Part shown: one piece after another, positions 54,476 through 58,907 of the stretch
Layout: each line of letters starts with the position of its first letter
Numbering within the stretch: position 1 is the first letter of the stretch
Origin: a virus
Length of the DNA: 64,000 bases
IMG/VR virus record: IMGVR_UViG_3300023174_000084
Location: 51,581-115,580 of that record
Strand: one strand, 5' to 3'
Program-made: the position numbers and the translations under genes
Notes under the pieces: generated by a model
Told to the model about the DNA's origin: nothing
The model's database searches: none
What the model saw: only the letters and a program-made list of their open reading frames with translations

Positions 54476-55141
54476 ATGGCGGGTTCAATTACCGAATTTA
54501 AATCTAGCTTTCAAAAAGATTTATCTCGTCCACATAAATTTGATGTGAACATTCCTATTCCTTTAACATTAATACCATACATTAAATCGGCAAAATCTCT
54601 TACATATCGTTGCGAGAATGCTAATTTACCTGGCAGAACCTTTGCTACAGCTGAACAAAAAACATATGGACCTGTAGAAAAATATCCATATCTTAACACA
54701 TACACCGATATTGATATGACATTTATTGTTGATGATGACATGACACAAAAGATTTTCTTTGATGCGTGGTTAAACTACATCAATCCATTATACAATAACA
54801 ATATACGATATAAAGGTGATTACTCAACCGTTATTACAGTAAATCAATATGATGTTACTAATCAAATATCATATTCTTGTAATCTCTATGATGCTTATCC
54901 TATTTCCATGAATCAAATGGATTTAGATTGGTCATCTGATGGATATCATAAATTGAATGTAACTTTTGCATATACTTACTGGCAAAACAACTCTCTGCAG
55001 GCTCTTGGTATGGAGTTTGTCGATGCTGGTATCAATGCAGTAAACAATATTGTTGGTGGCCTTGGTGGTAATGCCGTTGGTGCTGCCGGCACAGGAGTAA
55101 ATAATTTTATTAATGATATATCGTCTACATTTCGTAGATAA
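54476..55141 (+). CDS. 54: Baseplate tail-tube initiator gp54-like (tail-tube fold)
   Basis: The 221-residue protein follows the gp19/gp54 tail-tube pattern: RPHKFDVNIPIP, CENANLPGRTFATAEQKTYG (45-64), IDMTFIVDDDMTQKIFFDAW, and MNQMDLDWSSDGYHKLNVTF, AYTYWQ (about 144-171). This half-tube fold is used by gp54, which caps the baseplate and starts tube assembly with gp48. A Gly/Ala/Asn-rich tail (INAVNNIVGGLGGNAVGAAG) follows. An AAGGAAA ribosome site precedes ATG 54476. T4 gp54 is longer (320 aa), so the name is provisional. Confidence 0.75.
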   Translation: MAGSITEFKSSFQKDLSRPHKFDVNIPIPLTLIPYIKSAKSLTYRCENANLPGRTFATAEQKTYGPVEKYPYLNTYTDIDMTFIVDDDMTQKIFFDAWLNYINPLYNNNIRYKGDYSTVITVNQYDVTNQISYSCNLYDAYPISMNQMDLDWSSDGYHKLNVTFAYTYWQNNSLQALGMEFVDAGINAVNNIVGGLGGNAVGAAGTGVNNFINDISSTFRR

Positions 55142-55164: not shown

Positions 55165-55890
55165 ATGGCTTTACCTAAACTTGATATACCAACTTATGAA
55201 ATTGAATTGCCAATTTCTAAAAAGAAAATTAAGTTTCGACCATTTCTTGTAAAAGAACAACGAAACCTATTAATGGCACTAGAATCGAATGAAACTAGTA
55301 CCGTGCAACAAAACATCCGTGATATACTCAATAATTGCACATTGACCGAGAATGTTGATATTGATAGATTACCTATTATTGATATTGAATATTACTTTGT
55401 TAATCTACGAGCCAAATCAGTTGGTGAAGTAGTAGAGGCTCGTTATCGGTGTAATAATATTGTTAATGATACTGAATGTAACAATGTTATGGAAACAAAT
55501 ATTAATTTACAAGACATTAAGGTTACACAAGAAAAGACCATTAGTCCTGAAATACAAATTACACCAAAGATTACCATTAAACTAAAGTATCCAGAATTTG
55601 GCATGGTCAAAGATTCTTTACAGTATGATGATATCAATACAATCACATTTAATATGATTGCAAGTAGTATTGAATACATTTATGATGGTGAACAATTTTA
55701 TTATGGTCATGAAACATCACCACAAGAAATGTTACAGTTTGTTGAAACACTAAATGCTGAGCAGTTTAAAAAGATTGAAGAATTTTTTGAGAATCTACCA
55801 AAATTAAAAGAAAATGTTAATATTACCTGTAGTAAGTGTGGTTTTCACCACACGATAGAGGTGGAAGGGTTAGAGAATTTTTTCGGTTAA
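55165..55890 (+). CDS. 26: Baseplate hub assembly protein gp26
   Basis: The 241-residue protein matches the T4 gp26/baseplate family (T4 208 aa): LDIPTYEIELPISKKKIKFR, PFLVKEQRNLLMALES (26-41), and IEYYFVNLRAKSVGEVVEAR (74-93). Cys96 and Cys105 plus Cys222-x2-Cys225 suggest a zinc ribbon. A GGAGTGA ribosome site precedes the ATG. The last sense codons are TTT TTC GGT; the heptamer T TTT TTC at 55878-55884 in this frame is a canonical -1 slippery site leading into the next open frame. Its role is a hub assembly factor, possibly a tail-assembly chaperone for the tape-measure-like genes downstream. Confidence 0.88.
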   Translation: MALPKLDIPTYEIELPISKKKIKFRPFLVKEQRNLLMALESNETSTVQQNIRDILNNCTLTENVDIDRLPIIDIEYYFVNLRAKSVGEVVEARYRCNNIVNDTECNNVMETNINLQDIKVTQEKTISPEIQITPKITIKLKYPEFGMVKDSLQYDDINTITFNMIASSIEYIYDGEQFYYGHETSPQEMLQFVETLNAEQFKKIEEFFENLPKLKENVNITCSKCGFHHTIEVEGLENFFG

Positions 55891-56075
55891 TATTTCGTCA
55901 TGACAATCTGAGTAATTATTACAAAACGAATTTTTCGTTAATGCAACACCATAAGTATAGCTTGACCGAACTTGAAAATATGATGCCTTGGGAAAGAGAT
56001 ATTTACATCTCCCTTTTGATACAATATATTGAAGAAGAAAATCAAAAGATAAAAGAACGGCAGAAGAAGCGTTAA
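55836..56075 (+). CDS. Minus-1 frame extension of gp26 (likely made by ribosomal frameshift)
   Basis: This open frame is -1 to gp26 and overlaps its last 55 bases. As an independent gene it would start with GTG at 55836 without a ribosome site, inside the Cys-ribbon codons of gp26. A more likely product is a 303-residue fusion: gp26 residues 1-240, then RLIFRHDNLSNYYKTNFSLM and QHHKYSLTELENMMPWERDI, ending with KIKERQKKR. The continuity of a protein-like sequence from just after the slippery site supports this. It lies just upstream of two tape-measure-like genes, the position of G/GT-type frameshift chaperones in other phages. Confidence 0.8.
   Translation: MWFSPHDRGGRVREFFRLIFRHDNLSNYYKTNFSLMQHHKYSLTELENMMPWERDIYISLLIQYIEEENQKIKERQKKR
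55878..55884 (+). promoter_or_regulatory. Programmed -1 frameshift slippery heptamer T TTT TTC
   Basis: In the gp26 frame the codons are AAT TTT TTC GGT TAA, so T-TTT-TTC has exactly the X-XXY-YYZ phase. The purine-rich GGTGGAAGGG about 8-17 bases upstream could act as an internal Shine-Dalgarno stimulator. A gp26 stop follows 3 bases after the heptamer and the -1 frame stays open for 63 more codons. Confidence 0.75.
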
Positions 56076-56078
56076 TAA

Positions 56079-57629
56079 ATGGATTATCAAAAGGCCAAAG
56101 ACATTAGAGGCAAATCTCTAAGTTCACTTATCACCGATAATATTGTCGCTGGTGGTAGTGTTAGTTCGTCTATTCGTCAGGCATTATCTGATAGAAGTAA
56201 AGCACGCTCGACAGGCATCAAAGAGAAATTTGATCCATTAAACATCGTTAAAGCACTTACAGGCGGTTCTCGCCTAGCACCTGCAATACTTGGTCGTTTA
56301 ACAGGTAGAAGTCCAGAAACCATCAAATATTTTACCAAAGACCCAAAGAAAAGAGAAAATTTTGGTGGTATCAGTTCTCAAGATTTAACTGCTGCCACAC
56401 AGAAATTAGGTTCTATCTATACCATGATGGTTAAGATGGAAGAAGAAAGAAAATTATTAGAAGAAGAAAATACTCGTAATCAGGTTACAGAACAAGAGGA
56501 AGAAGATGCTCGCAACAAGCAACTTATCAAAGCTCTAACGGCTCGTGTTAGACCTAAAAAGAAAGTTAAAAAAGAACCTGAGGAAAGAAAACAAGAGCAA
56601 CAACAAAAAACAACAGAAAAAAAACAAGAACAAGAACAAAAAAAGACCGAAAAAAAAGAAGAAGGTAAAGTAAAGAAAAAAGAAAAAGAAGTTAAAAAGG
56701 AACAAGAAGCCAAAAAAGAAACAATAAAAAAGGCAGAAGAAAAAAAACCTGAAGTTGTTCCACCAAAAGAGGTAAAACCTAAACCTACTGCAAAACCTGA
56801 AGCGCCACCTGTTGCCAAACCACCAACAGCAGCAAAAATTCCACCCGTTGTTGTGAGTGGCACGAAAGGTTTAGTTTTAGGTGCTTTGGTCGCAGCAGGT
56901 TATTCCAAACAAGCCCAAGCCAATGTAATGGCCAGTGTGGAAAAAGAATCTAATTTTAAACCAAGAAGTGAAGAACTAGGTAAATATTCAGCAAAAACAT
57001 TATATAAACTATATGGCCCACCTGGTGCTGTAGACGGTCAGCCTGTTGGCGGTAAAAACAAAGTTCGTTTTAATACAATAGAAGAAGCACAAGCCGTTGT
57101 CAGTAAAGGACCTGAAGCTGTAGGTGATGTAATCTATGGTGGTCGTATGGGCAACACGGCACCAGGAGATGGTTTTAAATATCGTGGTCGTGGATTCATA
57201 CAGATAACAGGCAAAGAAAATTATGATAAGATTGGTAAAGCCATTGGTGTTGATTTAGTTAATAATCCAGACTTAGCAAATGATCCTGAAATTGCTGCCA
57301 AAATTATACCAGCATTCTTTAAACTAAGAATTAAAAAACCAGAAGATTTAGAAAACATCGATAAAGTCAATGCAGCAGTTGGTTCTGCCAGTGTAGAATC
57401 GAGAGAGAAAAGAAAAACATTGGCAGCTGCCTATGCCGCAGAGTTAAATACTGGTGGTCAAATCAATGCAGCTTCTACTGAAAACAAAGAATTGAAAAAG
57501 GATATGGCCGATACTACACCGGCTCAAGTTATTGTAAATAATAATACCACAAGTCAAATAAAAAAAGAAAAACCTATGCCAGCTGCTGGTGGTGATGATC
57601 GTTCGGCCTATACAAAGAAAATAAACTAG
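56079..57629 (+). CDS. Hub/tape-measure-like protein with GH19 hydrolase domain
   Basis: The 516-residue protein has an N-terminal domain (1-85; TGIKEKFDPLNIVKALTGGS, LGRLTGRSPETIKYFT) shared with the next gene, a long charged Lys/Glu/Gln linker (120-230), a Pro/Ala/Lys segment (228-258), and a GH19 (chitinase/lysozyme) domain at about 262-455. The GH19 marks are ASVEKESNF with candidate catalytic Glu288/Glu290, GGRMGNTAPGDGFKYRGRGF and IQITGKENYDKIG. The C-terminus has VIVNNNTTSQI. No signal peptide is present, so it is probably a virion-borne peptidoglycan hydrolase rather than a free endolysin (inference), filling the role of the lysozyme domain missing from gp5. Confidence 0.82.
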   Translation: MDYQKAKDIRGKSLSSLITDNIVAGGSVSSSIRQALSDRSKARSTGIKEKFDPLNIVKALTGGSRLAPAILGRLTGRSPETIKYFTKDPKKRENFGGISSQDLTAATQKLGSIYTMMVKMEEERKLLEEENTRNQVTEQEEEDARNKQLIKALTARVRPKKKVKKEPEERKQEQQQKTTEKKQEQEQKKTEKKEEGKVKKKEKEVKKEQEAKKETIKKAEEKKPEVVPPKEVKPKPTAKPEAPPVAKPPTAAKIPPVVVSGTKGLVLGALVAAGYSKQAQANVMASVEKESNFKPRSEELGKYSAKTLYKLYGPPGAVDGQPVGGKNKVRFNTIEEAQAVVSKGPEAVGDVIYGGRMGNTAPGDGFKYRGRGFIQITGKENYDKIGKAIGVDLVNNPDLANDPEIAAKIIPAFFKLRIKKPEDLENIDKVNAAVGSASVESREKRKTLAAAYAAELNTGGQINAASTENKELKKDMADTTPAQVIVNNNTTSQIKKEKPMPAAGGDDRSAYTKKIN

Positions 57630-58907
57630 ATGGATTACTATAAAGCTCAAAGTATCAGGAAAACAGCACTATCCGATTTGATTGCAGATCAAATTGCATC
57701 AGGTGGTGGCATTGGTTCTTCCATTGGTAAAAGTATTTCACAAAAGACATCGGCTGCAATGACTGGTATCAAACAACGATTTGATCCTTTAAACATTGCT
57801 AAGTTTGTGACTGGTGGTTCTAATTTGGGTCCTGCTGTATTGGGCCGTTTGACTGGTAGAAAACAAAGAGATATTAAATTCTTTACAGGCAAGAAAGTTT
57901 ATGATACTGCATCTAAAATAAAACCTGTCGAGGAAGGTGACGGACTTAATGATATTCTAAGTAAAATGTTAGGTTTCATGCAAAATATCAGTGAAGCTGA
58001 AAAAACAAGACGAAATGAAGCTAAACAATTTGCAGAAGAAAATGCATTAGAAAAAGCAAGGCGACATAAAGAACTCATTGAAGCCATTACAGGCAAACCT
58101 TTTACAGGCAATGAAAAGACAGTAACAGCAACAAAAGTACCTGAAGGTCCTCAAAGAAGTTTCTTAGATGATATATTGGATGCTTTTGGTCTTGGCCGTG
58201 ATGCATTATCGATATTAAAAACTGTTGGTAAAGTAGGATTGTTCTTCACTGGTCCTGTTGGTTTGGCCATTCTTGGTGCCACATCTATTATTGGTTTTGG
58301 CATTCTTTTGCGTAAAGCATTACAAGCTGAACCAAGTTATGAAGATGAACAAGCAGCCAAAGGATTAGACCAAGCCAAATCTGTTGGTGGCCTAGCTGGT
58401 GTTTCTGATGAAAGAGCTGCACGACAAAAAATGCCAGAGTATGATAGAACAATGGCAGAACTTAAAGATTTTGAAACATATCAAAATGAAGGTGAGAAAC
58501 TCACCAATAAACAATTAGAAGGCTTTGGTAAACGAGGACCAGGTGCTTTAGAAGCGGTTGAAGATTACAAAGTGGCTCGTGATAAGTATAAGAAAATTGT
58601 TGGTGAACCTGTTGAAACTGCCACACCTGCAGCTGCGCCAATAGAAACACCATCAGCAACACCAACATCATCACCGGCTTCTGAAGTTCCAACTGAAGCA
58701 CCGGCTGCTAGTGCAAAACTCAGCCAAGTTCAAAATGAAAATTTAAATCTAAACATTCCTGAAAGTAAAGAAGATCCATCATCTGTCATTAACAATAATT
58801 CGGTCAAGAGTTATGCAGAAGGTGGTGGAAAGATTCCAATGCCTCCTGTGAGGAATTTGGAACCTACATTTCAAAATATGATATTATATAGCACACGAGT
58901 TGTATAA
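57630..58907 (+). CDS. Tape-measure/hub-like protein with hydrophobic segment
   Basis: The 425-residue protein starts immediately after the GH19 gene's stop and shares its N-terminal domain (MDYYKAQSIR; TGIKQRFDPLNIAKF; LGRLTGRKQRDIKFFTG). A helical region (105-155) is followed by a hydrophobic stretch at 192-228 (LSILKTVGKVGLFFTGPVGL, AILGATSIIGFGILL), the kind of segment seen in tape-measure and gp29-type proteins that enter the host membrane. A Pro/Ala/Thr linker then leads to a C-terminal SSVINNNSVKSYAEGGGKIP and PPVRNLEPTFQNMIL. It may be the gp29 equivalent, but the gene is shorter than T4 29 (590 aa). Confidence 0.65.
   Translation: MDYYKAQSIRKTALSDLIADQIASGGGIGSSIGKSISQKTSAAMTGIKQRFDPLNIAKFVTGGSNLGPAVLGRLTGRKQRDIKFFTGKKVYDTASKIKPVEEGDGLNDILSKMLGFMQNISEAEKTRRNEAKQFAEENALEKARRHKELIEAITGKPFTGNEKTVTATKVPEGPQRSFLDDILDAFGLGRDALSILKTVGKVGLFFTGPVGLAILGATSIIGFGILLRKALQAEPSYEDEQAAKGLDQAKSVGGLAGVSDERAARQKMPEYDRTMAELKDFETYQNEGEKLTNKQLEGFGKRGPGALEAVEDYKVARDKYKKIVGEPVETATPAAAPIETPSATPTSSPASEVPTEAPAASAKLSQVQNENLNLNIPESKEDPSSVINNNSVKSYAEGGGKIPMPPVRNLEPTFQNMILYSTRVV

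Follow-up and report, generated by a model that had tools for sequence, protein, structure and literature searches.

Comparative evidence for a -1 frameshift joining gp26 to a gp51 extension in T4-like phages

Does translation of gp26 in this virus always stop where its reading frame stops, or do some ribosomes continue into the overlapping -1 frame? The window, the whole stretch of 64,000 nucleotides analysed here, comes from a virus record of 115,580 bases carrying T4-type late genes. Its gp26 homologue ends in the codons GAG AAT TTT TTC GGT TAA. As an earlier note, made from the letters alone, had pointed out, these contain a slippery heptamer, T TTT TTC, in the X-XXY-YYZ phase near the gp26 stop, from which it is separated by a single codon (GGT). 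The -1 frame is open from 55884 for 63 codons and terminates at a TAA at 56073-56075, and the product of a -1 slip would read ENFF-RLIFRHDNLSNYYKTNFSLMQHHKYSLTELENMMPWERDIYISLLIQYIEEENQKIKERQKKR. We favour, with a probability of about 0.92, a reading of the sequence in which gp26 is the short form of a tail assembly chaperone (TAC-N) and gp26-51 its frameshifted form (TAC-NC), which would be made by a -1 slip at T TTT TTC.

The gp26 locus and the relatives of its products

The features of the locus, all on the plus strand, are:

54476..55141 (+), tail tube protein gene, directly 5' of gp26 (phrog_45, 1e-42)
55165..55890 (+), gp26 homologue, 241 aa, proposed short tail assembly chaperone, TAC-N (PF12322, phrog_150, hhalign to T4-type gp26)
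55860..55869 (+), Shine-Dalgarno-like (SD-like) purine tract GGTGGAAGGG, candidate stimulator, 8 nt 5' of the heptamer (motif enrichment in relatives)
55878..55884 (+), slippery heptamer T TTT TTC in X-XXY-YYZ phase (wobble bases conserved in relatives)
55888..55890 (+), zero-frame stop codon TAA of gp26 (window sequence)
55884..56075 (+), -1 frame extension (TAC-C, 'gp51'), 63 codons plus stop; predicted fused product 303 aa (phrog_634, pN/pS)
56079..57629 (+), downstream gene, 516 aa, with a GH19-type lysozyme domain; its N-terminal 156 aa are common to the next gene
57630..58907 (+), downstream gene, 425 aa, without a match to any family and with one hydrophobic stretch; possible tape measure

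The gp26 homologue matches PF12322 (T4_baseplate, 8e-63) and phrog_150 (2e-64), and its family aligned with T4-type gp26 by hhalign (99.7%, E 2e-25). The extension matches phrog_634, 'baseplate hub assembly catalyst', at 7e-30, in keeping with the earlier claim that the -1 frame reads as convincing protein for 63 codons. It also matches positions 234-276, the C-terminal part, of phrog_150, the gp26 family itself (8e-7), suggesting that in certain phages a single reading frame encodes the whole fusion. When the fused alignment was compared with three T4-type gp51 proteins, hhalign gave a probability of 98.1 and an E value of 8e-14, and the alignment ran through the junction, covering positions 13-287 of 303 and 7-245 of 250; the extension alone matched the gp51 C-terminus at E 6e-7. 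T4-type gp26 and T4-type gp51 are themselves mutually homologous (E 3e-12). As the fusion and gp51 align end to end, T4 gp51 is the unshifted equivalent of the fusion. In T4-type genomes, by contrast with the arrangement here, gp51 is a full-length gene of its own on the opposite strand beside gp26, without a slippery site.

An AlphaFold model of gp26 had a pLDDT of 88, and that of the isolated extension was all-helical with a pLDDT of 78. Foldseek placed the gp26 model near the HK97 TAC 2ob9 below significance (probability 0.25-0.28, E 1.9-3.4), and 3fgx was also among the non-significant matches. Neither sequence nor structure search returned a significant relative in the PDB; matches in the viral structure library were other gp26 proteins and one gp51.

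Two genes downstream of the extension had been described in the earlier note as tape-measure-like. This was not borne out for either: they are paralogous over their N-terminal 156 residues (41% identity, 4e-24), one carries the lysozyme domain, and neither matches a tape measure family. A tape measure role is possible for the gene at 57630..58907.

Heptamer conservation and coding in the -1 frame

Relatives were gathered from IMG/VR together with named phages, giving 248 loci with a readable gp26 end, a count that leaves out one locus whose ORF is broken and six phages, three of them T4-type and three Ackermannviridae-like. Leaving aside the T4-type and Ackermannviridae-like groups, 248/248 of these relatives had in-phase T TTT TTN at the gp26 end (241 TTTTTTC, 6 TTTTTTT and 1 TTTTTTA). 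Loss of the heptamer from close relatives that keep the extension, an outcome that the earlier note had named as contrary to a frameshift, was thus not seen in this clade. Carriers include P-SSM2, S-PM2, Pelagibacter phage Mosig, Pseudomonas phage Milchi, Stenotrophomonas phage BUCT608, the KVP40-like V09 and Cronobacter phage LPCS28, and the heptamer was found in additional named phages such as Sinorhizobium phage phiM19 (TTTTTTT) and Desulfovibrio phage 7757. The distance from stop to heptamer was identical in 202 of the 209 unique sequences, and the extension was uninterrupted, at 53-80 codons (median 62). Mosig differs in that its zero-frame gp26 runs eight codons beyond the heptamer, its stop lying 30 nt downstream of where the first slippery codon begins, which indicates that proximity of the stop is not strictly required.

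Synonymous-site conservation around the heptamer, the comparison that the earlier note had suggested as a check, was quantified on 138 representatives with <90% nucleotide identity to each other and on a FastTree phylogeny. The three codons of the heptamer ranked 2, 3 and 4 of 186 columns. On the tree, their third bases had changed 0, 0 and 6 times, compared with a median of 45 across 233 columns, and no column besides the heptamer's was without change. Judged from these alignments, the presence of the in-phase heptamer at the gp26 end is far beyond chance.

Protein coding in the -1 frame begins at the heptamer. Over the 15 codons immediately after it, a stretch that precedes any Met, pN/pS was 0.118, and it was 0.116 further downstream, whereas the other two frames of the same bases gave 1.07 and 0.75 and the -1 frame immediately upstream of the heptamer gave 1.53, a value without coding constraint. 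The extension is encoded in 546 phage records, with 70% identity per column, and in nearly all of the listed records it is encoded starting with the FF of the heptamer. Between the last -1 frame stop and the heptamer, ATG, GTG and TTG were absent in 194 of the 209 unique loci, in agreement with the earlier observation that the extension frame lacks a supported start, and in about 40% of loci the first start codon came 18-19 codons beyond the heptamer. Independent initiation is therefore disfavoured for most of the family, including at GTG 55836. The interval 55836-56075, given in the earlier note as the extension ORF with its GTG start, is misleading because the upstream -1 frame of relatives is usually stopped or startless and shows no protein constraint.

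These data weigh against the reading, improbable in our view, that gp51 is a small gene in its own right and is translated by re-initiation after gp26, at GTG 55836, at a near-cognate start beside the gp26 stop or at an internal ATG. Databases do annotate it in this way for many cyanophages, and an ATG lies three codons 3' of the heptamer in 56/209 loci, mainly cyanophages, where it serves as the annotated gp51 start. Against this stand the unconstrained -1 frame 5' of the heptamer and the conservation of downstream codons even where 18-19 of them are startless; the SD-like tract, separated from the cyanophage ATG by about 25 nt, is too distant to initiate there, and separate initiation would leave unexplained why the wobble bases of TTT TTC are conserved. 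Because of the coding constraint and the missing starts, we rejected a start of the extension's own, both at GTG 55836 and at an ATG further on. The other outcome that the earlier note had named as contrary to a frameshift, relatives whose extension is a separate gene with its own start and ribosome site, does not refute the frameshift in this clade.

Still less probable is slippage at the level of transcription, with RNA polymerase adding a base on the T run and normal translation then yielding the fusion. Transcriptional slippage makes -1 fusions in some bacteria and a run of six Ts is present here, but such a run is short for slippage to be efficient in bacteria. In 131/138 representatives a C follows the six Ts and so keeps the T run from growing, and the codon phase does not vary, a constancy for which a polymerase would have no need; we consider this explanation disfavoured by the conserved C. 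We give practically no credence to the idea that only gp26 matters, with TTTTTTC and an open -1 frame arising as by-products of a conserved FF and chance. The FF residues are indeed conserved in the gp26 protein, but the heptamer codons are 100% TTT and 95% TTC, whereas other gp26 Phe codons are TTT in 43-91% of sequences, and the extension is under purifying selection; codon bias and selection already contradict a by-product.

Candidate stimulator and proposed slip

The earlier note had placed a purine-rich tract just upstream of the heptamer. The tract is present, and its position was corrected to 55860-55869. An SD-like tract (GGAGG, GAGGG, GAAGG or AAGGA) ending 8-10 nt before the heptamer was found in about 127-130 of the 138 representatives, a spacing like that of the dnaX stimulator. 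At the two tract codons, GAG for Glu was over-used relative to the rest of gp26 (odds ratio 3.5, p 4e-11), as were GGA/GGG for Gly (odds ratio 4.3, p 1e-14), where both p values ignore relatedness. The mean anti-SD duplex energy was -6.9 at the tract versus -2.5 elsewhere in the gene. On this pattern, the tract is a probable stimulator of the slip. A search for conserved downstream RNA structure in relatives revealed no pseudoknot or hairpin (mean z -0.4), and Rfam gave no match at the site; lambda-type TAC sites need no downstream structure.

What the computation shows is that the heptamer is conserved, that coding in the -1 frame sets in there, that a start codon is lacking and that the fusion is homologous to T4-type gp51. 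We infer the ribosomal slippage, its efficiency, its stimulation by the SD-like tract and the chaperone role. In the proposed mechanism, a ribosome would hold TTT and TTC (55879-55884) in its P and A sites, and a fraction of ribosomes would then move back by one base as the two Phe tRNAs re-pair with TTT/TTT, an event that the SD-like tract probably promotes. Having slipped, they would bypass the TAA, which is one codon away from the heptamer, and the 63-residue 'gp51' domain would be added to make the 303-aa TAC-NC. If lambda gpG/gpGT is taken as the model, the tape measure protein may be coated by many short copies while a few long ones recruit tail tube subunits. This likeness is one of arrangement rather than of demonstrated sequence homology, and the role of the long form here is inferred; the lambda heptamer is G GGA AAG, unlike T TTT TTC. 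A short form and a C-terminally extended long form are present here by sequence and by homology to full-length T4-type gp51. Taken as comparative evidence, these results strongly support both main proposals of the earlier note, a programmed -1 frameshift joining gp26 to the extension and a G/GT-like chaperone pair.

Relation to described chaperones and their annotation

The TACs of T4-like phages were reportedly identified by Vladimirov, Gautam and Davidson (Virology 2022, 566:9-15), with frameshifting in several groups, and T4 is said to have been proposed there to use separate genes 26 and 51. These are reportedly the same family as here (gp26 as TAC-N, the gp51 region as TAC-C), with the same -1 frameshift in several groups. 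Passages of two later papers cite that study, one for TAC-N genes of T4-like phages with poly-T slippery sequences (PMC12846349), the other for T4-like phages with a short gene and a separate longer fusion gene (PMC10885494). As these passages cite it consistently, the principle of the frameshift is already published, and the suggestion that a frameshifted T4-type chaperone may be new falls away. On the sequence evidence, the present locus is a well-supported further case of the published T4-like TAC frameshift. Our analysis reproduces it independently, extends it to a clade of uncultured phages and adds constraint statistics and the SD-like tract, which may have been described before. A passage of PMC12846349 also describes, for the TAC of Vandenendeviridae and Andersonviridae, a conserved -1 frameshift whose site is T-rich and lies at the end of TAC-N; that site, GTTTTT, differs from T TTT TTC.

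In cyanophages, gp51 was described as only about 20% as long as, and lacking the first ~200 residues of, other gp51 proteins (Sullivan et al. 2010, PMC3037559). This 'short gp51' belongs to the same gene pair as here, and it would look truncated because gp26 supplies the first ~200 residues, through the frameshift. The main text of PMC3037559 does not mention frameshifting, and a literature search on programmed frameshifting and cyanophages found no report.

Ackermannviridae gp26 ends in ATT TTC AT(T/C) TAA, with the motif ATTTTCAT and without the heptamer. Its -1 frame runs on into a conserved extension (LIFEIDLLSYFVMCDELK...MPWHLDLL) that is kept in five sampled genomes. Members of Kuttervirus and Taipeivirus have no start codon before the conserved residues of this extension, and Agtrevirus and two Vibrio phages show a TAATG-type overlap at the gp26 end. 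Tentatively, and with the odds somewhat against it, Ackermannviridae might make the same fusion via a non-canonical slip site or near-cognate initiation; if so, this would be a third route, next to T TTT TTC and the T4 gene pair, by which the long chaperone is made.

The conservation of T TTT TTC where gp26 ends is sufficient for automatic correction of annotations in this very abundant aquatic virus group, in whose public records gp51 starts are arbitrary or gp51 is unannotated. The extension carries inconsistent starts, or is left out, in the records of ACG-2014d, MC09, DSL-LC02 and phiM19.
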